Shown: one piece after another, positions 1 through 38,640 of the stretch
Layout: every line of letters begins with the position of its first letter
How positions within the stretch are numbered: position 1 is the stretch's first letter
IMG/VR virus record: IMGVR_UViG_3300014720_000065
Span: 1-40,352 of that record
Length of the DNA: 40,352 bases
Source: a virus
Direction: 5' to 3' (one strand)
Notes under the pieces: model-generated
Seen by the model: the letters and a program-made list of their open reading frames with translations, nothing else
What the model was told of the DNA's origin: nothing
The model's database searches: none
Translations under genes and position numbers: made by a program

Positions 1-65
1 CAATTTGCGCTAAATCCCATAACAGCATTACCCACAGCACGTACTTGTTTAGTGTTTGCAAACAT
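1..65 (-). CDS. Hypothetical protein, N-terminal fragment (runs off left edge)
   Basis: The first 21 codons of a minus-strand gene are visible (begins MFANTKQVRAVGNAV) before the window ends. The start is supported by an AGGAGCG ribosome site just upstream and its own consensus promoter at 93-121. The visible part shares the absence of TC and CC dinucleotides with the next three genes. No function can be assigned from 21 residues. Confidence 0.6.
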   Translation of the reverse strand, partial: MFANTKQVRAVGNAVMGFSAN

Positions 66-92
66 TGTGTCGCTCCTATTAACTAAAAACAA

Positions 93-121
93 AGTATAGC
101 ACAGCCTGCCCAAAATGTCAA
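93..121 (-). promoter_or_regulatory. sigma70-type promoter (TTGACA-17-TATACT)
   Basis: The minus strand reads TTGACA (121-116), 17 bp, then TATACT (98-93), with an extended -10 TGC just before it. It drives the gene at 65-1. An inverted repeat AGCACAGC/GCTGTGCT (98-105 and 125-132) brackets the -35 box. Confidence 0.85.
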
Positions 122-140
122 CCTGCTGTGCTAAAAACCC

Positions 141-623
141 TTATGCTGTCAGTGTTATTGCTTTGCGTATCTCGTCTGCTATGCCAAAAGCGTCGTAGCT
201 AGCACGTCCCTCGTCCTGCATACCCCATTCGCTAGTATGCACATTGCCTGCTGTCTCTGCACTAAAGCCGCAGTCTATAAGTATGTCTCTAAGTTGTTCG
301 TCAAAAGCATGTTCCCAATAAAACTGTCCCATCACTGCTGTAACGTCGTCTTCGCTGTGTATGTTGCGCAACAGCAGTACGCCCGTAGTCTGTGCAGTCT
401 CGTCGTTTTGCAAGCCCTCCATGTCCCAAGCAACATACATGTCGCCGTCGCAATAGCTAGCCTCTTCGCCTTCGTCTGCATCGTTATCTGTGCTAGCATA
501 CATGCCTACCTCTAGCACTTTAACGCCTGCAACAGTCAAGCCTCTGTCGCTAACGTCTACGCTAAAGCTAATCCCGTCTTTTTCTACTTCGCAAAATTGT
601 GCAATTTTTTGTGCATTAAACAT
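141..623 (-). CDS. Hypothetical acidic protein, proline-free
   Basis: 160 residues, rich in Asp/Glu, with no recognised domain. The ATG at 623 is chosen because AGGAGCG lies just upstream; an in-frame ATG at 638 has no such site. The coding strand contains no TC and no CC dinucleotide over its whole length. As a result there is no proline, serine is always AGC or AGT, and codons ending in C occur only as purine-C. It has its own promoter at 664-692 and is part of the compositional island at 1-1330. The function is unknown; its position suggests an early accessory gene. Confidence 0.7.
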   Translation of the reverse strand: MFNAQKIAQFCEVEKDGISFSVDVSDRGLTVAGVKVLEVGMYASTDNDADEGEEASYCDGDMYVAWDMEGLQNDETAQTTGVLLLRNIHSEDDVTAVMGQFYWEHAFDEQLRDILIDCGFSAETAGNVHTSEWGMQDEGRASYDAFGIADEIRKAITLTA

Positions 624-663
624 ATACGCTCCTAACAAGTTAAGTTAATTAAACAGCGTATGC

Positions 664-692
664 ATTATAACATACGCTGCCCAAAATGTCAA
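664..692 (-). promoter_or_regulatory. sigma70-type promoter (TTGACA-17-TATAAT)
   Basis: Perfect consensus -35 and -10 with 17-bp spacing on the minus strand, upstream of the gene starting at 623. The stop codon of the preceding gene (694-696) lies almost against the -35 box. Confidence 0.88.
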
Positions 693-693
693 G

Positions 694-921
694 TTAAATT
701 GTAGTGTACTTTCTGTATTCCTTGCCACCTACGTTGCTGTACCACAGCCCGTTAGTTTTCTTGTAATAGCCCTGCTTGTACCAGTTTTTAATTTGTGTTG
801 CGTGTTGCTGTCTCCCACGTTCTGCAATAGCGTCTTGCAGCGTCATCGCAATGCCTGCTGCGTCTACTGCTGCTTGCTGTGCTTGTTGTGCTGCGTGTTG
901 TGCTAGTGTTAAGTTACGCAT
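694..921 (-). CDS. Hypothetical small protein, Ala/Gln-rich, proline-free
   Basis: 75 residues. The N-terminal half is an Ala/Gln-rich likely helix (LAQHAAQQAQQAAVDAA). The C-terminal half is basic and aromatic (KNWYKQGYYKK, ending KEYRKYTTI), possibly nucleic-acid binding; that is inference. The start ATG at 921 follows AGGAGCGATA. The coding strand has no TC or CC and the protein has no proline, as in its neighbours. No family is recognised. Confidence 0.65.
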   Translation of the reverse strand: MRNLTLAQHAAQQAQQAAVDAAGIAMTLQDAIAERGRQQHATQIKNWYKQGYYKKTNGLWYSNVGGKEYRKYTTI

Positions 922-955
922 TATCGCTCCTTACAATTACTGTTTAAGTGTGTGT

Positions 956-984
956 ATAATAGCACATACTGTCCAAAATGTCAA
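956..984 (-). promoter_or_regulatory. sigma70-type promoter (TTGACA-17-TATTAT)
   Basis: Minus-strand -35 TTGACA at 984-979 and -10 TATTAT at 961-956, spacing 17, preceded by TGC. Serves the gene starting at 921. Confidence 0.83.
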
Positions 985-1008
985 GCACTATGCTAATAAC
1001 CCTACAGT

Positions 1009-1260
1009 TTAGTCAACAAATACAATATTATTAGTGCGCAGTGTTTGTTGTGCATTTTGCAACGCTTTGTTAATTGTTAACTGTTTATAATCTGCGCTGT
1101 CTTGCAAATTACATAAGTCTCCTGTGCTGTAATTTGCTGTGCGCACATTTACTGTGTTGTTAAAACTTACTAGCATACGGATAGTGTTTAGCTTTTTGTT
1201 AATTACAAATTTAGCAAATGCTTTTTGTGCTAGTGCTGCTGCTTTGTAAGTGTTTTGCAT
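1009..1260 (-). CDS. Hypothetical small protein, proline-free
   Basis: 83 residues, Asn/Gln/Ala-rich, with no recognised domain. The ATG at 1260 follows AAAGGAGCGCAAC. This gene holds the only exception to the TC/CC ban in the island: one ATC CGT codon pair (plus-strand GGA at 1179-1181). It has its own promoter at 1288-1316. Confidence 0.65.
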   Translation of the reverse strand: MQNTYKAAALAQKAFAKFVINKKLNTIRMLVSFNNTVNVRTANYSTGDLCNLQDSADYKQLTINKALQNAQQTLRTNNIVFVD

Positions 1261-1287
1261 GTTGCGCTCCTTTGTTTAAGTGTGTGT

Positions 1288-1316
1288 ATAATAGCACACT
1301 TTGTCCAAAATGTCAA
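1288..1316 (-). promoter_or_regulatory. sigma70-type promoter (TTGACA-17-TATTAT)
   Basis: -35 at 1316-1311, -10 TATTAT at 1293-1288, spacing 17, extended TGC. It marks the right-hand start of the GA/GG-free block. Confidence 0.85.
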
Positions 1317-1331
1317 CCAAAATGCCTAAAG

Positions 1332-1350
1332 ACCCTACAGCCTGTAGGGT
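1332..1350 (-). terminator. Compact hairpin between transcription units
   Basis: ACCCTACAG and CTGTAGGGT form a near-perfect inverted repeat between the terminator of the gene at 1427-1738 and the next promoter. There is no strong T-run on the minus strand. Related CCCTAC/GTAGGG hairpins recur in the same position before other promoters (11976-11996, 5745-5764). Confidence 0.45.
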
Positions 1351-1361
1351 TATTCGAGATC

Positions 1362-1426: not shown

Positions 1427-1738
1427 TTATTCAGCGACAGTTTCTGCCTTCACGACAGTCGTTTTACTTACCTTGGCCTTTGCGGCCACAGGGTTCTTCT
1501 TGGCCACGTAGTCGATGGCAGCTTGTACATCTGCGCGACCGTGGGCGAAGTCTGTGTCGATCATGTGCTGAGCGATCTCGCCTTTGGTCATTTCATGTGG
1601 CAGGTCCACCAACTCGATATTGGTGTGGCCGTTCTTGGCCAGGATCTTGATACGCATGGTATCGTTGGCAAAGCGGATCTTGGTCTTGCCTTCAAGGGTG
1701 GAAACACCAGCAACCGCAAATTTCTTTTCTGTAGCCAT
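1427..1738 (-). CDS. Hypothetical basic phage protein
   Basis: 103 residues, in three parts: an N-terminal beta-rich half (FAVAGVSTLEGKTKIRFAND), a middle helical stretch, and a Lys/Ala/Val tail (AAKAKVSKTTVVKAETVAE). The ATG at 1738 follows GGAGATTTAG. It is a single-gene unit: promoter at 1794-1822, strong terminator at 1362-1394. The dedicated terminator suggests high expression. The basic tail could bind nucleic acid. No named family is recognised. Confidence 0.7.
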   Translation of the reverse strand: MATEKKFAVAGVSTLEGKTKIRFANDTMRIKILAKNGHTNIELVDLPHEMTKGEIAQHMIDTDFAHGRADVQAAIDYVAKKNPVAAKAKVSKTTVVKAETVAE

Positions 1739-5036: not shown

Positions 5037-5302
5037 TAGCGCCAATCCTTCTTGTCCCCAAACCGCTCATTGTATTCATAGCCTGCGGCATACTCGCGGA
5101 CTTCTTCTGGAGTTAGGTTATCCACACGCGGACCCGAATCCCCACCTACTCCACCATAGTGCGGATCACTGCCACGACCGTAGTAAGAATCTGCCGAGCC
5201 GCGATCAAACAGGCACCCGTGCCGCTTGCGATCAAACTGCCAGCCACGCAGGGCTCGGACGATCTGCTCTTGCTCTGTTTCGGTTTTTAGTTTAATATAC
5301 AT
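5036..5302 (-). CDS. Hypothetical protein
   Basis: 88 residues, Gly/Tyr-rich centre (DSYYGRGSDPHYGGVGG), then NLTPEEVREYAAGYEYNERFG, a pattern seen in small phage proteins of unknown role. The start at 5302 follows AAGGAGCGAAG. Cotranscribed with the SWIM gene. Confidence 0.65.
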   Translation of the reverse strand: MYIKLKTETEQEQIVRALRGWQFDRKRHGCLFDRGSADSYYGRGSDPHYGGVGGDSGPRVDNLTPEEVREYAAGYEYNERFGDKKDWR

Positions 5303-5327
5303 CTTCGCTCCTTAACAATTAGTCTAT

Positions 5328-5356
5328 AGTATAGCACCGATCGCCCAAATTGTCAA
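5328..5356 (-). promoter_or_regulatory. sigma70-type promoter (TTGACA-17-TATACT)
   Basis: -35 at 5356-5351 contains the TGA stop of the preceding gene; -10 at 5333-5328. Confidence 0.88.
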
Positions 5357-5670
5357 GCGATTCGATATAATAACCCTGTGCTGGTCTGGGTCTTTGTTAC
5401 TCCCTGCTCTGCCCAGTAGGCTTCCATTTCCCGCAGTTGTTTGAGATTTTTTACAACGGGTTTGTCAATCTTGATTGACACTCGCTTGACGTTATAGGCT
5501 TCGTAGATCTTGCCCGCATAGAGCTCTCCCAGAGCAACCATCATACGGTCCACCTGCAGTTGCACAGAGGCACTCCAACGGCTCTTGTTGGCGATGCTCT
5601 TCATGCGAGCATCCTGCGCTGCCCACCATGCGCAGGGGGCTTTAAGAGTTGTTTTTTGATCAGTAATCAT
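5353..5670 (-). CDS. Hypothetical protein
   Basis: 105 residues beginning MITDQKTTLKAPCAWWAAQ, helical with a Lys/Val-rich segment (RVSIKIDKPVVKNLKQL). The ATG at 5670 follows GGAGCGAAGT; in-frame ATGs further upstream fall in the promoter and are rejected. Single-gene unit. Confidence 0.65.
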   Translation of the reverse strand: MITDQKTTLKAPCAWWAAQDARMKSIANKSRWSASVQLQVDRMMVALGELYAGKIYEAYNVKRVSIKIDKPVVKNLKQLREMEAYWAEQGVTKTQTSTGLLYRIA

Positions 5671-5700
5671 ACTTCGCTCCGTTTCGTTCACTGTACCCAT

Positions 5701-5729
5701 AGTATAGCACCAAGGAATCAAAATGTCAA
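5701..5729 (-). promoter_or_regulatory. sigma70-type promoter (TTGACA-17-TATACT)
   Basis: -35 at 5729-5724, -10 at 5706-5701, spacing 17, extended TGC. Confidence 0.87.
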
Positions 5730-5744
5730 CCGAAACGTTTAAAG

Positions 5745-5764
5745 ACCCTATGATCTTCTAGGGT
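5745..5764 (-). terminator. Short hairpin containing a stop codon
   Basis: ACCCTA and TAGGGT can pair (5745-5750 with 5759-5764); the TAG stop of the gene at 5748-6074 lies in the stem. It precedes a promoter, as do the other CCCTA hairpins. A weak or factor-dependent terminator at best. Confidence 0.35.
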
Positions 5765-6074
5765 ATTGTAGATGCTCAGCTTCTTTGCGTAGTCGTCCTG
5801 CTTTTTTGTAAAGCTCGTCAGCATTCCTACGAAGTTCAGCTGCTCTGGCATCTGTGAGATCAGAGCCCCCAAATTCTCTGAAGACATAGTATTCAACCAA
5901 CCTGTTCTTGATCATCGTAGGAAGGTCCATACCGACATCTTCTGGACAAATAAAACGGACAGGGCATTTACCCCATCCGCCGTATTCTAAGAACTCTGCG
6001 TAATAACGTCTGTGATCTTTGTTAGTAGGATCAAATGCCACTAACGGTCTGCAAAGGTATTCAAGTTTGCTCAT
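5748..6074 (-). CDS. Hypothetical protein
   Basis: 108 residues, aromatic N-terminal half (DHRRYYAEFLEYGGWGKCPVRF) and a helical basic C-terminus (RRNADELYKKAGRLRKEAEHL). It starts just after the TAG of the 54-codon gene upstream (one base between) and has no clear ribosome site, so it is probably coupled. Last gene of the unit from 6502. Confidence 0.65.
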   Translation of the reverse strand: MSKLEYLCRPLVAFDPTNKDHRRYYAEFLEYGGWGKCPVRFICPEDVGMDLPTMIKNRLVEYYVFREFGGSDLTDARAAELRRNADELYKKAGRLRKEAEHLQYPRRS

Positions 6075-6075
6075 T

Positions 6076-6240
6076 CTAGCTATTTACCGTCCCATACGGA
6101 TCACAGTCTATGATGTAGCAATCTTCGGGTTTTTCTTTAGGAAATGCTTTGTCCCATTCTGCAGGATCGATATAATCCTCATCTACGCAGTTGCCATCAT
6201 CGTCGTAGGTAGGATCTTCATTGATACGATGAAAAGTCAT
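6076..6240 (-). CDS. Hypothetical small acidic protein
   Basis: 54 residues (begins MTFHRINEDPTYDDDGNCV), very acidic. The start shares ATGA with the upstream stop. Third gene of a tightly overlapping four-gene unit (6502-5748). No family recognised. Confidence 0.6.
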   Translation of the reverse strand: MTFHRINEDPTYDDDGNCVDEDYIDPAEWDKAFPKEKPEDCYIIDCDPYGTVNS

Positions 6241-6362
6241 TTTACACTCTCTTTCATAATAGTCTGTGTTTTACCAACAGCCTTATCTACGGCACTGGCT
6301 ACTCCAGTGATGCCCACTGTAGCCACGAACATACCTGCGATGAACGCTAGTAGGATCTTCAT
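6237..6362 (-). CDS. Small membrane or exported protein
   Basis: 41 residues: an N-terminal hydrophobic segment (MKILLAFIAGMFVATVGITG) ending near VASA, which could be a signal peptide or single membrane anchor, followed by a short basic tail. Preceded by AGGAGCAACT; ATGA overlap at both ends. Confidence 0.62.
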   Translation of the reverse strand: MKILLAFIAGMFVATVGITGVASAVDKAVGKTQTIMKESVK

Positions 6363-6502
6363 AGTTGCTCCTCAAAGGATTCGGGTTTCGGGTCATTGCG
6401 AGTTTTCCAACGATACCACAGAGCCTGCGGAATGCCCAGACGCCAGGCCCACATAAAATCCATTACTACAAGTCCTACAACGAATGCGATTAACAGTTCC
6501 AT
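6359..6502 (-). CDS. Small membrane protein
   Basis: 47 residues, one N-terminal transmembrane segment (MELLIAFVVGLVVMDFMWAW) then a basic, aromatic cytoplasmic tail (RLGIPQALWYRWKTRNDPKP). Starts after AGGAGCGGTAAG under the promoter 6531-6559. First of a four-gene unit; it and the next gene may form a membrane pair. Confidence 0.66.
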   Translation of the reverse strand: MELLIAFVVGLVVMDFMWAWRLGIPQALWYRWKTRNDPKPESFEEQL

Positions 6503-6530
6503 CTTACCGCTCCTTTCTTACTATACCTAT

Positions 6531-6559
6531 AGTATAGCACCAATCTATCTAGTTGTCAA
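6531..6559 (-). promoter_or_regulatory. sigma70-type promoter (TTGACA-17-TATACT)
   Basis: -35 at 6559-6554, -10 at 6536-6531. The palindromic start region is shared with 3860 and 4642. Confidence 0.87.
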
Positions 6560-6599
6560 TACCTATCTACACGCACACACGTAGCAGCGGGGCCTGTGG

Positions 6600-6695
6600 C
6601 TAAAATGCCACATCCGCCGGCACTCGCCAATCTGTATGTGGAGGTAAGTCATAGTCCATAGGGTCGTTGGGGAACCTAGGTGTAGTAGGGCTCAC
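6600..6695 (-). CDS. Hypothetical 31-residue protein, GTG start
   Basis: A proline-rich mini-protein (ending DWRVPADVAF). The GTG start overlaps the TGA of the VWA gene as GTGA and sits behind a strong GAAGGAGG site, which argues that it is translated. Cotranscribed with the VWA protein. The function is unknown. Confidence 0.5.
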   Translation of the reverse strand: MSPTTPRFPNDPMDYDLPPHTDWRVPADVAF

Positions 6696-7900
6696 GCTGC
6701 CTCCTTCTCGTAGATCACAGTCTGACCAAACGGAGCATTGGCCTGTTGGTTGCCTTTGACTATGAAGATCGTGTCGCAGAAGTCCTCTGGACCCCAACTA
6801 CCGCAAGGGTATCCATCAGTGAACATGATGAACTTCTTGGGTTGAATACCATTCTCTTCCATAAAGGTCCAGTTCACTTCAAAGTCTGTACCGCCTCCAC
6901 CTTGAGGCTCATACTCTACCAGCTCATGAGCTTCGTCATGTGTGATCTGTTTCCAGTTGTAGATCTCTGTGTCAAAGCACCACAGGTTGATCTTGAAGTC
7001 CTCATACTGGTCCATGATGCCCTTGATCTCACTTAAGAATGTAGTGGCATCTTCGTCGCCGATAGAACCACTCATATCTATGGCAATGGCCACGTCGATG
7101 GTGGTGGCTTCTTTCATGCCCGGTAGTATGGCACCCGAGTGCATACTCTTACGATTCACGCGAGTAAAGGAGTAGTCATTGCGAACGATACTTTGGATCT
7201 CTTGCTGAACCAATTGGCGCCAATCCATCTTAGGCTCAGTCAAGTTCTTGATCATACGCATGATACCTGCAGGAGTCTTACCTGCACCAGCGGCCGCGGC
7301 ACTCTGGATCATTGCTTCTTTGATCTCTTGGCGCAGTTTCTCTGCTTCTTCTTTAGAAAGGCTAGGCTTACCCTTACCGTCCTTGGTCTTATCTTCATCG
7401 GCACCGGCTCCTTCCTGCTCTTTGATGTGTTCATCAAGCAGATCGCCTAATTGCTTCAACAATTCAGGCATAGAGATCTTTTCTGCTTTTTCATAAAGCT
7501 CATCGTAGATCTCTTCCCAAGCCTTGCCACGATATTTGGCATCATAGCAGATCTTAACCTCGGTGATCTTATCACCGATTCGTTCATCAATAAGGATCTG
7601 GTTGACAGCATAGTCCTGTGCGATGTTGCTGAGCATACGATCACGCGATCCTACACGGCCAAAGTGATCAAACACGCAGTGGAGGATTTCATGTGCGAAC
7701 AGGAACTCTAGTTTCTTAACCGAGAGCTTCTCGATGAATTTGGTGTTATACATGAAGTCGCGACCATTAGTGGCCGCAGTAGGGCACCAGTCCGATGCAT
7801 CAATCAAACGCATACGGGTAGCCATGTTGCCAAAGAAAGGCGCCTTTAGTAGCAGTCCTACTCGTGCAGTGGTTAGTTTTTCGATAATGGGATCATTCAT
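6692..7900 (-). CDS. VWA-like protein with HExxH peptidase-like domain (DUF2201 type)
   Basis: 402 residues. The N-terminal domain has FAHEILHCVFDH with a zinc-protease-like HExxH at 70-74. A charged linker lies at about 160-200, and a C-terminal von Willebrand A domain carries the metal site DMSGS (275-279), GGGTD (about 336-339) and TDG (361-363). This matches the DUF2201 architecture, which pairs with MoxR ATPases such as the gene immediately upstream (8015-9100). Such pairs act as chaperone or remodelling machines, often for metal-dependent targets. It has its own promoter (7927-7955) and start after GGAGAGCGAAC. Whether the HExxH is catalytic cannot be judged here. Confidence 0.88.
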   Translation of the reverse strand: MNDPIIEKLTTARVGLLLKAPFFGNMATRMRLIDASDWCPTAATNGRDFMYNTKFIEKLSVKKLEFLFAHEILHCVFDHFGRVGSRDRMLSNIAQDYAVNQILIDERIGDKITEVKICYDAKYRGKAWEEIYDELYEKAEKISMPELLKQLGDLLDEHIKEQEGAGADEDKTKDGKGKPSLSKEEAEKLRQEIKEAMIQSAAAAGAGKTPAGIMRMIKNLTEPKMDWRQLVQQEIQSIVRNDYSFTRVNRKSMHSGAILPGMKEATTIDVAIAIDMSGSIGDEDATTFLSEIKGIMDQYEDFKINLWCFDTEIYNWKQITHDEAHELVEYEPQGGGGTDFEVNWTFMEENGIQPKKFIMFTDGYPCGSWGPEDFCDTIFIVKGNQQANAPFGQTVIYEKEAA

Positions 7901-7926
7901 GTTCGCTCTCCTAACTGTATGTATCT

Positions 7927-7955
7927 ATTATAGCACCTTCTAGCATTCTTGTCAA
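7927..7955 (-). promoter_or_regulatory. sigma70-type promoter (TTGACA-17-TATAAT)
   Basis: Full consensus with extended TGC; -35 at 7955-7950, -10 at 7932-7927. Drives the VWA gene separately from its MoxR partner. Confidence 0.88.
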
Positions 7956-7969
7956 CCAAAAAGATAGGT

Positions 7970-7998
7970 GGGCTAGAGCCCTGGGTGAGCTCTAGCCC
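7970..7998 (-). terminator. Terminator-like hairpin after the MoxR gene
   Basis: A 10-bp perfect stem GGGCTAGAGC/GCTCTAGCCC with a 9-base loop. On the minus strand it is followed by ACCTATC and then TTTTT, so the T-run is offset from the stem. A plausible but not ideal intrinsic terminator. Confidence 0.6.
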
Positions 7999-8014
7999 GG
8001 CCATGGGCGAGGTC

Positions 8015-9100
8015 TTAGTTCTCCATGGCACTCAAAACATACTTACCGAACTTCTTGTGGAACTCATCGAAGGATTCCATCTTAGTAGCGTCCAAAGGCA
8101 AGTCATAGTTAGTGAGCGCAGTCTTAGCCCCCATGACTACCAGTTCTGTAGGGAAGTTATCCATCATATAACGGAAGAAGCGATCCGCCATATCATCCCA
8201 ACCCTTGGTCTTCTTGTCTGCACGATCTTTGAGTTCATAGCAGAGCGAAACGGTCAAGGAATACATGGCACTGACTTCTTTGATCTGCAGATCCTTGACC
8301 TTACCATCAAGAATGTCCTCTGCCTTGGGCAGTTTGCCTGCGATCTTACGGTGAGCCATGAACTTGTTGGCAAGTCCATCGCCAACGGCACCCGCGATCA
8401 GCGTCGCCAATGTATCAGTATCGACATCATCGTCCTGCAGGAGATCGCTGACGAACACCCACGAACGAGGAGTTGCGAAACTCTTGCTAGGGCTCTTAGG
8501 ATCGAAGTCATACAGGTCCTGCTTGGCGAAACCCACATAACCAACCACGTCAGGGTGGACTTTGTTAAGGGTAGCCCAGTCCTGGAAGTCATCGAAGTCT
8601 ACCTTCATCTCCAAGTGGACGAAGCGGTTAGCCAGCGGAGCAGGCATACGGTAAGTAACACCGCGATCGCCTTCGCGGTTGCCAGCGGCAACAATGTCTA
8701 CACCTTTAGGTAGAACATAGGTACCAACTCGACGGTTAAGGATCAGTTGGTAGGCAGCGGCCTGTACCGCAGGAGGAGCGGAGTTCAACTCGTCCAAGAA
8801 AATCACTGCGGTGGACTCTGAGTCCGTAGGAAGCTCTGAAGGAGGAGCCCAAACCATCTTGCCTTGATCTGCATTGTAATAAGGGATGCCCTTGATGTCA
8901 GTGGGTTCCCACAGGGCTAGGCGGACGTCAATGACTTCACGACCTAACTCGTTGCCAATCTGCTTGACCACATCGGATTTGCCGATGCCCGGAGGGCCCC
9001 ACAAGAAAGTAGGACGGCGAACTTTGATCGCCTTACGGATCGCTTTTTTGGCACCCTTAGGGCCTACTTGGCGGACAGAAACATCAGTTTGCTTTGACAT
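8015..9100 (-). CDS. MoxR-family AAA+ ATPase
   Basis: 361 residues. Walker A GPPGIGKS at 35-42, Walker B VIFLDELN at 99-106, then PAVQAAAYQLILNRRVG and the sensor-type motif AAGNREGD, in MoxR order. MoxR ATPases remodel or activate client proteins together with VWA-domain partners; the adjacent downstream gene encodes exactly such a partner. The start at 9100 is preceded by GCGAGGTCTT. It has its own promoter at 9154-9182. Which client is served, host or phage, is unknown. Confidence 0.9.
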   Translation of the reverse strand: MSKQTDVSVRQVGPKGAKKAIRKAIKVRRPTFLWGPPGIGKSDVVKQIGNELGREVIDVRLALWEPTDIKGIPYYNADQGKMVWAPPSELPTDSESTAVIFLDELNSAPPAVQAAAYQLILNRRVGTYVLPKGVDIVAAGNREGDRGVTYRMPAPLANRFVHLEMKVDFDDFQDWATLNKVHPDVVGYVGFAKQDLYDFDPKSPSKSFATPRSWVFVSDLLQDDDVDTDTLATLIAGAVGDGLANKFMAHRKIAGKLPKAEDILDGKVKDLQIKEVSAMYSLTVSLCYELKDRADKKTKGWDDMADRFFRYMMDNFPTELVVMGAKTALTNYDLPLDATKMESFDEFHKKFGKYVLSAMEN

Positions 9101-12478: not shown

Positions 12479-12784
12479 CTACATTGACCAGTAGGTTTCA
12501 GTCGAAGGGTCGCAGGATCGCCAGGTGTTGACACTTTGTGTGAACTCTTTGCCAGTGATAAGATTGCGTTTAGTCTCTGTCTTTTCGACATGCTGATGGA
12601 AGTACTCAGCATCAGCGTAGCCAAATTGGAACAGAGGACCATCGTTGCTGATGTCATGGAAGTGATGGGTGATGCTGCCGCGCAGATGCTGATTGTGCTT
12701 ACGGGTGATCCAGGCCTTGGCGGCCCGAGGAGTCTTACAGGTCTTTTGGATCACTGTAGTCTCTTTGTCGTAGACGTACCACAT
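12479..12784 (-). CDS. Hypothetical protein
   Basis: 101 residues (begins MWYVYDKETTVIQKTCKTPR), His-rich centre (THHFHDISNDG). Start preceded by AGAGGAGATTG, one base after the stop of the GIY-YIG-like gene, with which it is cotranscribed. Confidence 0.68.
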   Translation of the reverse strand: MWYVYDKETTVIQKTCKTPRAAKAWITRKHNQHLRGSITHHFHDISNDGPLFQFGYADAEYFHQHVEKTETKRNLITGKEFTQSVNTWRSCDPSTETYWSM

Positions 12785-12785
12785 A

Positions 12786-13106
12786 TCAATCTCCTCTGAT
12801 GTCTGTGTTAAGTGTGGGGCGAACAGTGCGTCGGATCTCTACTTCACGCTTGTGGGCCGCAGCCTTGCCCCGGACGATCTCATGCACTATGATCTCGATC
12901 ATGCCCTTGTCCGCGATGTCTCGCAATGCTGCGCACAGGAGCCAATTCTTGGTTTCAGTTTTGGCACGATACCAGTGCTTGGCTGCTCTAGCGCGAACGC
13001 TCTTATTAACAGTGCTCTCTGTCTTGGCAGTGACGCCGATGTAGTTGCCCTGCGGCACCCGCAGTTCGTAGATGATGTGATTACGGTCAGTTCTTTTCGC
13101 TCTCAT
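12786..13106 (-). CDS. GIY-YIG nuclease-like protein, near-leaderless
   Basis: 106 residues. IIYELRVPQGNYIGVT corresponds to the GIY...YIG strands; a downstream Arg (RARAAKHWYRA), a Glu (KREVEIR) and LNTD at the C-terminus fit the order of GIY-YIG endonuclease motifs, though the first motif is IYE rather than GIY. The in-frame frame continues upstream through the promoter. Only 9 bp separate the -10 box from the ATG at 13106, so the mRNA would carry almost no leader. Could be homing-type or a small nicking enzyme. Confidence 0.6.
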   Translation of the reverse strand: MRAKRTDRNHIIYELRVPQGNYIGVTAKTESTVNKSVRARAAKHWYRAKTETKNWLLCAALRDIADKGMIEIIVHEIVRGKAAAHKREVEIRRTVRPTLNTDIRGD

Positions 13107-26831: not shown

Positions 26832-27205
26832 ATTTACAAACTAAAGGACAGGTAAAAAAAGGATGGGGATTCGAAATCGTTTTTGCAAACAACGACAAAT
26901 ATTGTGGAAAATTATTAGTCTTTGATAAAGTAGGTGCTAAAACAAGTTTGGTGTTCCATAAGGACAAAGCCAAAAGTTGGTTCATAAACGCAGGAAAGTT
27001 TAAAATTAAATTTATCGATATCAGTACTGGGGAAGTCAAAGAAGTTATATTGGAAGAAGGAAAAACAGTCGACTTCGGTCCACTAAGTCCACATCAGATT
27101 GAAGCTCTGGAAGCTAATTCGATAATCTTTGAAGTGGGTACTGCTGATTACATCGAAGATCGATTTAGACTTGCACCTGGTGATACACAGATTTCAGTGC
27201 CGTGA
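26828..27205 (+). CDS. Cupin-fold protein, sugar-isomerase-like
   Basis: 125 residues. [20 protein letters not shown], then [38 protein letters not shown] and [13 protein letters not shown] follow the order of mannose-6-phosphate isomerase-type cupins, but only some metal ligands (His44, a later His) are obvious. Possibly surface-sugar related. The 3' end overlaps the convergent ALA synthase by 41 bp. Confidence 0.75.
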
Positions 27206-28370
27206 TCAGATCGCTCATTATCGCGTCGTCATGGAATGGAGTAGGACTAAAGCGCAGCCGTTCAGTACCAACGGCAACAGTAGGATAATTAATCGGCTGT
27301 ACATAGATGTTATAGTCCTCTAAAAGTTTATCGCTCATGACTTTGCATTTTTTAGCTTCTCCTACTAACATAGGAACGATATGAGTGGTAGAACAAGACA
27401 TCACAGGTAGTTCGTTTTCTTTTAGTAATTGTTTCAATTTAACTGCACGTTCTTGATGTCTTACTCGTACTTCGTTATGATCCTTTAACCATTTAACTGC
27501 TGCTAAGGCACCAGCACAGGCCACAGGACTCATAGAAGTTGTAAAGATAAATCCAGCAGCTACAGAACGGATAGCATCAACGACATCAGCATCGGCGGCG
27601 ATATAACCACCTTGGACTCCGTAGGCTTTTCCTAATGTGCCATTGACTATGTCAATACGGGATTCGAGCCCCAGTTCTTCAACCTTCCCACCACCGTGGG
27701 TACCATAGAGTCCTACCGCATGTACTTCGTCTATGTAAGTTATAGCCTGATATTTGTCTGCGAGATCACAGATTTGTTTGATAGGACTTACATCGCCATC
27801 CATGCTGTAGACTGATTCAAACACAATGCAGGGAGTGAATCCCGCCAATCTGCTATGACTTAACTTGTCTTCTAAATCTTGTAGGTCGTTGTGTTTGAAG
27901 ATTTGTTTAGGTGCCCGACTATGTTGTATACCAACTATGAGGCTGTTGTGATTATTGGAATCTGAGATAAACTGTATATCGGGTATGATTTTACTTAGGG
28001 CTATGATAGTCCATTCATTGGCCACATAGGCGGAGCTAAACAGCAATGCTCTACTTTTATTGTGCAACATTGCCAACTCATATTCTAAGGCCACATGATA
28101 ATGGCTAGTGCCGCCAATATTTCGAGTACCGCCCGATCCCGAACCCGTTTGATCTAAGGCGGTGTGCATAGCATCCAAAACTACCTTGTGCTGACCCATG
28201 CCTAGATAATCATTTGAGCACCAATTAACTATAGTTTTAATGTTGTAGGGTCCGTACCAGATAGCTTTAGGAAAATCTCCTCGTTCACGGATAATATCAT
28301 TGAACACGCGATATTTCCCTGTATCCTTGAAGTCTAATATGAGTTTTTTGAAGGGTTCTTTGTTTATCAT
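27165..28370 (-). CDS. hemA: 5-aminolevulinate synthase (C4 pathway)
   Basis: 401 residues, complete. [41 protein letters not shown] and the PLP lysine in [13 protein letters not shown] (Lys248) are those of ALAS rather than other alpha-oxoamine synthases. Condenses glycine and succinyl-CoA to ALA, the first step to haem and corrinoids. The type is alphaproteobacterial. A GGTAAATA late-like element precedes the ATG. Unusual cargo for a phage. Confidence 0.93.
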
Positions 28371-37365: not shown

Positions 37366-38640
37366 ATGGATAAACGTACACAGAGACAGCAGGCTCTACA
37401 ACAAGATTGGGCCACAAACCCAAGATGGAACGGAATCAAAAGACCCTACACAGCAGAGGAAGTCGTGCGCCTACAAGGCTCAAAGACTTACCCAAATCAG
37501 TTTGCCGTCGAACAAGCCAATAAACTATGGCGACTATTAAATGAAGAACCATATGTAAATACATTAGGAGCCTTGACAGGCCTGCAGGCCCTACAGCAGG
37601 TTAAAGCAGGATTAAAAGCCATATATCTTTCGGGATGGCAGGTTGCCGCAGATGCTAATTTGGCAGGTGATATGTATCCAGATCAGAGCCTATATCCAGC
37701 TGACTCTGTACCAGCAGTGGTTAAAAAGATTAATAACGCATTTGCCAGAGCAGATCAAATATCATGGAGCGAAGGTAATGAGAGAGATTTCTACGCTCCT
37801 ATAGTAGCAGATGCAGAAGCAGGATTCGGAGGTGTACTTAATGCCTACGAACTTATGAAGGACATGATAGATGCAGGAGCGGCAGGAGTACACTTCGAAG
37901 ACCAGCTGGCCTCAGCGAAAAAGTGTGGACACATGGGAGGAAAGGTCTTGGTACCTACAAAGGAAGCTGTCAACAAATTGGTGGCCGCTCGCCTTGCAGC
38001 TGACGTTATGGATGTTCCTACCCTCGTTATTGCTCGTACTGATGCCGAAGCTGGTAATCTACTTACTAGTGATATTGATGATAATGACAGGCCTTTTCTT
38101 ACTGGCGAACGTACTGTGGAAGGCTTCTATCGAACAAAGAATGGATTGGAACAGGCAGTCAGCAGAGCAGTCGCTTATGCAAGTTACGCCGACCTTGTCT
38201 GGTGTGAAACAGGCCGACCTGATCTTAAGTTTGCAAGAGAATTCGCAGAGAGAGTCTACAAGCACCATCCAAATAAAATGTTAGCCTATAATTGTTCACC
38301 TTCGTTTAACTGGAAGAAGAATCTAGATGACAACACTATCGCCAAGTTTCAACGTGAACTAGGCGCAATGGGATACAAGTTCCAGTTCATCACTTTAGCA
38401 GGTTTTCATAATCTAAATAATGGTATGTTTGAACTGGCCTATGGCTATGCACGACAAGGTATGACTGCTTTTGTTGAAATGCAAGAACGTGAATTTGCCA
38501 ATGCGGCCATAGGTTTTGAAGCAGTCAAACATCAACGCGAAGTAGGCACAGGCTACTTTGATCTGATAACTACTACTGTAGAGAAAGATGCTTCGACACA
38601 GGCTCTAAAAGGAAGCACAGAAGAGGAACAATTTCATTAA
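37366..38640 (+). CDS. aceA: Isocitrate lyase
   Basis: 424 residues, close to the bacterial length. Active-site KKCGHMGGK at 185-193 (Cys187), metal region [24 protein letters not shown] and YNCSPSFNW are diagnostic of isocitrate lyase and exclude methylisocitrate lyase. Splits isocitrate into glyoxylate and succinate. Late-type promoter; TAATG link to the aldolase gene. No malate synthase is in the window. A rare phage gene. Confidence 0.95.

Follow-up and report, generated by a model that had tools for sequence, protein, structure and literature searches.

The first 1330 nt of the window (the whole 40,352 nt stretch of viral DNA that was analysed) belong to a block of small genes from whose coding strand the dinucleotides TC and CC are excluded, and such void blocks are present on dozens of divergent contigs from uncultured large phages. 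Neither base composition nor codon usage predicts so few of these dinucleotides, in genes or in spacers, and the depletion is upheld by purifying selection across divergence. We put at roughly 0.4 the probability that the block is an accessory cassette escaping an effector that reads these dinucleotides and acts on transcribed DNA. The feature appears to be without published precedent, as judged from a literature check that was not exhaustive.

The YC-free block and its genes

YC is used here for TC or CC on the coding strand, which in the window corresponds to GA or GG on the plus strand. Dinucleotide counts for plus-strand positions 1–1330 revealed one GA and one GG, compared with 114 GC and 128 GT. 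Both exceptions lie in a single GGA (1179–1181), and the next GA is at 1331. The initial annotation had drawn attention to the lack of GA and GG in this segment and to the near absence of C after a pyrimidine on the coding strand, and both observations hold, with one TCC as the only breach, though the G residues number 244 rather than the approximately 200 that it gave. From 5000 base shuffles of the segment, 102.8 ± 6.9 GA plus GG are expected (minimum 79), compared with the 2 observed. The GA/GG-free run of 1179 nt compares with runs of no more than 108 nt elsewhere within the window, and none of the other first-base/second-base classes in the window approaches it. The plus strand of the block includes 73 TC and 64 CC, which is about normal, and the effect is thus strand-specific. 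The features of this part of the window are:

1–1330, minus strand: the portion of the void block that the window covers, with no TC or CC on the coding (minus) strand apart from the exception below; the remainder (to L006:7057) lies past the contig end
1–65, minus strand: void gene 4, cut by the contig end so that only its N-terminal part is present (the whole gene, L006:6559–6792, encodes 77 aa starting MFANTKQVRAVGNAVMG)
93–121, minus strand: internal promoter of void gene 4, TTGACA-N17-TATACT, YC-free (L006:6503)
141–623, minus strand: void gene 3, for a 160 aa protein of no known family
664–692, minus strand: internal promoter of void gene 3, TTGACA-N17-TATAAT, YC-free (L006:5932)
694–921, minus strand: void gene 2, for a proline-free 75 aa protein of no known family
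956–984, minus strand: internal promoter of void gene 2, TTGACA-N17-TATTAT, YC-free (L006:5640)
1009–1260, minus strand: void gene 1, for a proline-free 83 aa protein with relatives in 35 loci
1179–1181: sole exception in the window by the counts, GGA on the plus strand and TCC on the coding strand, in ATC CGT
1288–1316, minus strand: first promoter of the block, TTGACA-N17-TATTAT (L006:5308)
1331–1353, minus strand: 5′ border, a terminator-like hairpin ACCCTACAGCCTGTAGGGT immediately upstream of the first promoter, where YC resumes
1427–1738, minus strand: upstream neighbour, 103 aa, normal YC, which marks the site of the void cassette in several relatives

The end of the block at 1331, at the hairpin upstream of the first promoter, and the normal composition of the next unit are as originally described. 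The leftward extension that had been recommended was provided by a 59.5 kb contig (L006) from the same phage, which includes the whole block (5293–7057). It is 1.77 kb long and consists of five small genes (83, 75, 160, 77 and 52 aa), each with a promoter of the TTGACA-N17-TATNNT type and a GGAG-type ribosome site, and its coding strand is YC-free except for one TCC. A terminator hairpin is found at the upstream edge and a hairpin with a CCCC arm at the downstream edge. When the five proteins were re-encoded 5000 times using the codon usage of the neighbouring genes, 104.7 ± 8.1 YC were obtained (minimum 79), compared with 2 observed. The lack of proline and the AGC or AGT serine codons first reported for three of the proteins extend to all five (no proline; serine codons AGC 16, AGT 3, TCN 0). 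The genes neighbouring the block have the same promoter type and normal YC, and expression timing alone therefore does not explain the restriction to one locus.

Neither base shuffling nor re-encoding generates a comparable void. Relatives at about 30–60 % protein identity show the same one, so that the sequencing or assembly artefact considered in the initial annotation is excluded; the exclusion of YC from the block is real.

Pfam and PHROG searches with the void proteins of the window returned no match. The void gene 3 family is the most conserved of the void families (24 of 25 loci), and its relatives are exclusively uncharacterised viral proteins. The structure predicted for the 160 aa protein is confident (pLDDT 86), and as a Foldseek search of the PDB found no match at E≤0.001, the predicted fold is new by this comparison. 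Some relatives of void gene 1 keep a conserved proline, in the sequence FPxQ, at the price of one TCC.

Judged by a 402 aa protein encoded in the window, the phage is close to large phages including Phosso and PA5oct. The window also includes two metabolic genes that are unusual in a phage, one for an aminotransferase of class I/II (27165–28370, minus strand) and one for an isocitrate lyase/PEP mutase-like protein (37366–38640, plus strand). At 6692–9100, a gene for a DUF2201 metallopeptidase/VWA protein, which has relatives in hundreds of large phages, adjoins one for a MoxR-like AAA ATPase.

Distribution, strand and borders of void blocks

Scans using void proteins and the neighbouring protein as queries (the 155-residue protein, its alignment, an alignment of the 83 aa family, a 60 aa void protein and the 103 aa neighbour) recovered dozens of viral loci, on contigs that are mostly fragments of uncultured phages. 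Long YC-free runs are found in most void-family loci (1614, 1327, 1244, 1083, 1065, 1028, 1024, 1013, 1009 and 966 nt), and in two later scans a run of at least 300 nt was present in 33 of 62 loci (22 of 35 and 11 of 27). Complete-looking genomes include one void locus or none; for example, there is one in G030 (353 kb) and none in the related G032 (364 kb). The void block is an accessory locus, and its gene content is mosaic, shuffled among phages. In G009, one protein family is represented twice on one contig, with 12 YC in the 246 nt of one copy and 0 in the other. The Xanthomonas phage X1 encodes a 36 % identical homologue of a void protein with a normal YC content (44 in 390 nt), so the void belongs to the unit and is not inherent in the protein family. 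This X1 protein is the sole relative of the void proteins found among isolated phages, and none was detected in bacterial genomes or plasmids. A void-family domain SEWGMQDEGRASYDA also occurs within a larger protein of 803 aa with normal YC (L016:4837–7248).

The purged strand is the coding strand throughout, including where the genes are on the minus strand (L059, L063 and L072). As the initial annotation had proposed, the rule acts on nucleic acid rather than on protein and is linked to the transcription unit; the strand follows the genes, and spacers are purged equally. In 18 blocks, YC density is 0.24 per 100 nt inside and about 8 outside, a 35-fold difference with sharp borders. Between the −35 and −10 elements, YC is found in 6 of 19 first promoters (up to four in L069), whereas outside promoters include it in 194 of 256 cases; since first promoters are poorer in YC, the border is not exactly at the start site. 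Past the transcription start, 1 of 19 leaders includes YC, and none of 31 internal promoters, which are read through, does so, a figure that follows in part from the definition of a void. At their 3′ ends, voids stop at terminators or within the next gene, 27–93 nt past the last void stop codon (27 nt in L074, 44 in L064, 56 in L007, 80 in L069 and 93 in L062). Residual YC is no different from RC in its occurrence in predicted RNA stems (0.64 and 0.65, respectively), and some hairpins or terminators are rebuilt as alternating purine-pyrimidine stems (L072:8635–8661 and 12745–12791).

The blocks show the limits of coding under a nucleotide ban, with no proline and with serine encoded by AGY only. 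Both strands are purged in L072 and in part of G009, and the L072 phage even has ORFs with zero GA, GG, TC and CC, one of which, of 204 residues, lacks D, E, G, W and P altogether. An array of many inverted repeats, GTTCGCACGTGC-N(20–40)-GCACGTGCGAAC, lies between and around two of these ORFs (L072:9900–12900, corresponding to 11.5–14.6 kb of G024). The shorter ORF of this array, without D, E, G, W and P and with no Shine-Dalgarno sequence, may from its sequence encode a winged-helix-like protein. At L032:13822–14060, a void gene on the minus strand has two promoters in tandem, and the leader of approximately 200 nt that separates them is GR- and YC-free on both strands; it is rich in palindromic GCGC/TGCGCA stems and is possibly a structured RNA.

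Selection, the antisense strand and possible causes

One cause offered by the initial annotation was that cytosines of YC in the non-template strand had been deaminated to saturation, for which an APOBEC/AID- or DddA-like enzyme or a targeted mutator might be responsible. Several APOBECs prefer YC, and the dependence on strand and transcription would suit such an activity. However, T is not in excess. At 1362 fourfold sites after a pyrimidine, its frequency is 0.322; the flanks have 0.363, and C-to-T change should have given 0.505. In 13 blocks, the share of YT matches its conditional baseline. Serine occurs at 0.94 of its flank frequency, encoded by 225 AGY and 3 TCN codons, and a TCN-to-AGY switch is impossible by deamination. 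Proline is at 0.02 of the flank frequency, and leucine (0.89) and phenylalanine (0.85) show no rise in the direction expected of serine and proline changing to leucine and phenylalanine. RC is enriched rather than decayed. When diverged blocks (7–25 % divergence) were compared, differences 5′ of a conserved C were A↔G exchanges in 26 of 26 cases, compared with 11 of 60 in flanks. These observations favour selection and not C-to-T deamination, which we consider very improbable as the cause. Acquisition from a source with this constraint, also raised initially, is insufficient, because the constraint is upheld while blocks diverge by 7–25 % and their gene content is shuffled.

YC is also depleted on the antisense strand, but less strongly than it is excluded from the sense strand, with a definite motif and within the same borders. 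In 13 pooled blocks, antisense ATCA is at 0.09×, ACCA at 0.14×, AYC at 0.29× and YCA at 0.46×, with other YC contexts mostly at 0.7–1.1. Expressed as GRT/GRC, the ratio is 0.30 inside the blocks, whereas the sequence immediately upstream of them has about 1.0 and that immediately downstream 0.67. As the depletion is seen in all three reading frames, it is not due to codon choice. The residual sense-strand YC of void ORFs weakly mirrors this preference (ATCA/ACCA in 1 of 67, compared with 10.2 % in flanks), and the antisense-type context preference was absent from partly depleted genes. Sense-strand GA is mildly depleted (0.79×).

Escape from an effector that reads YpC, a further suggestion of the initial annotation, is the family of explanations that survives, though its purely mRNA-level form is complicated by the antisense depletion. 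In that form, a host RNase or RNA-modifying toxin, or a host-shutoff one encoded by the phage, would attack YpC in single-stranded mRNA and leave YC-free transcripts intact. The total exclusion from the sense strand of transcribed units is as expected from this, and dinucleotide-specific RNA toxins active against phage exist, CmdT modifying GA in single-stranded RNA (PMC11618068). MazF-mt3 and MazF-mt6 cut at U^CCUU and UU^CCU. However, a purely RNA-level cause covers only part of the data, since antisense AYCA is depleted within the same borders. In several phages the void stops inside the next co-directional gene, and the presumed co-transcript would be cut downstream, and an RNase with plain YpC specificity was not found in the literature searched. 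We regard RNA-level escape as possible, and action of the effector on transcribed DNA as the likelier of the two. The transcript might instead be freed from Rho, whose primary site binds 5′-YC dimers, the descriptors of rut sites (PMC9160355), and which could not load on YC-free RNA. The avoided dinucleotide is indeed that of Rho, and the excluded strand is the RNA-like one, with intergenic RNA included. However, multiple YC at intervals across tens of nucleotides are required by Rho and single ones should be tolerated, whereas isolated YC are lost too and YC-free runs reach 1614 and 1327 nt. Coding sequence, normally shielded by ribosomes, is as strict as the spacers, and neither the antisense AYCA depletion nor the restriction to a single locus is accounted for. 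Escape from Rho is therefore unlikely.

A cassette transcribed from modified incoming DNA would need a GR-free template if the phage's own 7-deazaguanine were at GR. Genes for preQ0 synthesis are common in these phages, which makes this reading attractive; FolE is found with QueE in G013, G030, G031, G032, G033, G035 and G038, and QueD in G013. Bases of the 7-deazaguanine type do occur in phage DNA (PMC6884629), and Olsen (2023, cited in PMC11945000) reportedly describes a lineage with a single GA motif. However, G032 has FolE and QueE and no void, G035 and G038, with the same two genes, are void-free as far as their contigs reach, and G034 (199 kb, contig incomplete) has a void without either gene. 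No PF01702 match representing TGT/DpdA was detected in 44 records, the contigs being mostly fragments, and there was no match to the 9g DpdA in 29 records. As relatives carry the pathway without a void, the phage's own 7-deazaguanine genes were rejected as the cause, and we hold a role of such modification to be improbable. Clearance of primase start sites near an origin is more doubtful still. AYCA resembles a primase template signal, and in G001, G006 and G024 the skew changes direction close to the locus. However, the void strand is set by gene orientation, and the skew at these points peaks where genes converge, whereas an origin should lie at a minimum. Avoidance of a CRISPR PAM was rejected since the other strand retains YC, and restriction avoidance since a single strand and a single locus are involved.

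The leaning towards an effector acting on transcribed DNA comes from the antisense depletion, namely its lesser strength, its definite AYCA motif and its shared borders. The cassette consists of small genes of early type that all have a sigma70-like promoter of their own, and strong and continuing selection purges 5′-YC-3′ from the coding strand of its transcription units. It would then stay expressible while a YC-reading effector is active and normal phage or host genes are not. We infer that such an effector exists and that it would act on transcribed DNA, affecting the two strands unequally, either by attacking YC of the exposed non-template strand (as a DarT-like adduct or a single-strand cutter might) or by attacking the guanine of GR in the template and so blocking RNA polymerase. 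That ADP-ribosylated DNA alters RNA polymerase activity is a precedent for a DNA-level model (PMC12170906). By analogy with anti-defence islands, the products of the cassette may switch the effector off. A YC-reading effector was not found in the literature searched or among the phage genes scanned. Whether large phages carry an exchangeable anti-defence cassette with a YC-free coding strand, which alone would be expressible under a dinucleotide-specific, strand-biased defence, with L072 as the extreme case, we judge to be evenly balanced.

Known systems and 7-deazaguanine genes

In animal RNA viruses, the suppression of CpG and UpA represents escape from ZAP and RNase L. As in the void blocks, a virus avoids a dinucleotide read by an effector, codon junctions and non-coding parts included. 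However, that suppression is few-fold and genome-wide, whereas the void is 35-fold, at one accessory locus and bordered by transcription units, and has a weaker, motif-specific antisense component. Restriction-site avoidance by phages is similar in that a defence selects target motifs away, but the void concerns a 2 nt target on one strand at one locus. In MazF-based single-protein production, a transcript free of the motif is likewise expressible while other mRNAs are cut, ACA-less mRNA being translated in MazF-expressing cells (PMC4775720, PMC5408214). That system is artificial and involves a trinucleotide and a known RNase, whereas the void is natural, involves a dinucleotide and has a putative effector. 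The CmdTAC anti-phage defence ADP-ribosylates GA in single-stranded RNA and thus demonstrates dinucleotide recognition by a defence effector, but its target is not YC, and sense-strand GA in the void is only mildly affected, as noted above. DarTG systems place adducts on DNA bases, in short single-stranded motifs or on guanines, and adducts on either strand can change RNA polymerase activity (PMC12170906, PMC11543638), though neither YC nor AYCA matches their known motifs, which are TNTC/TTTW for DarT2, DarT1 having no consensus.

If the proposed reading is correct, sequence alone would reveal the specificity of an undiscovered defence or of a phage host-shutoff effector, and as the void would mark the genes that face it, the effector would become directly testable. 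The cassette, being YC-free, would parallel in nature what ACA-less expression achieves in the laboratory, and it could serve as a marker for such loci in other viruses.

Genes related to 7-deazaguanine synthesis form part of a conserved large-phage cluster (L205–L209, L097:1500–5432 and L093:18776–19225) that includes GTP cyclohydrolase I together with a guanine-type phosphoribosyltransferase-like protein, an HIT-like protein, a QueE-like radical SAM protein and a flap endonuclease. This cluster suggests 7-deazaguanine nucleotides without a detected DpdA. PP-loop/QueC-like proteins, below the family cut-off, are encoded in G019 (L112:7703–8305) and G021 (L106:13656–14252), and G013 encodes an IMPDH/GMP reductase, a ferredoxin-dependent bilin reductase and a UvdE-type endonuclease (L092:1476–2615, L092:4068–4757 and L094:113–1237).
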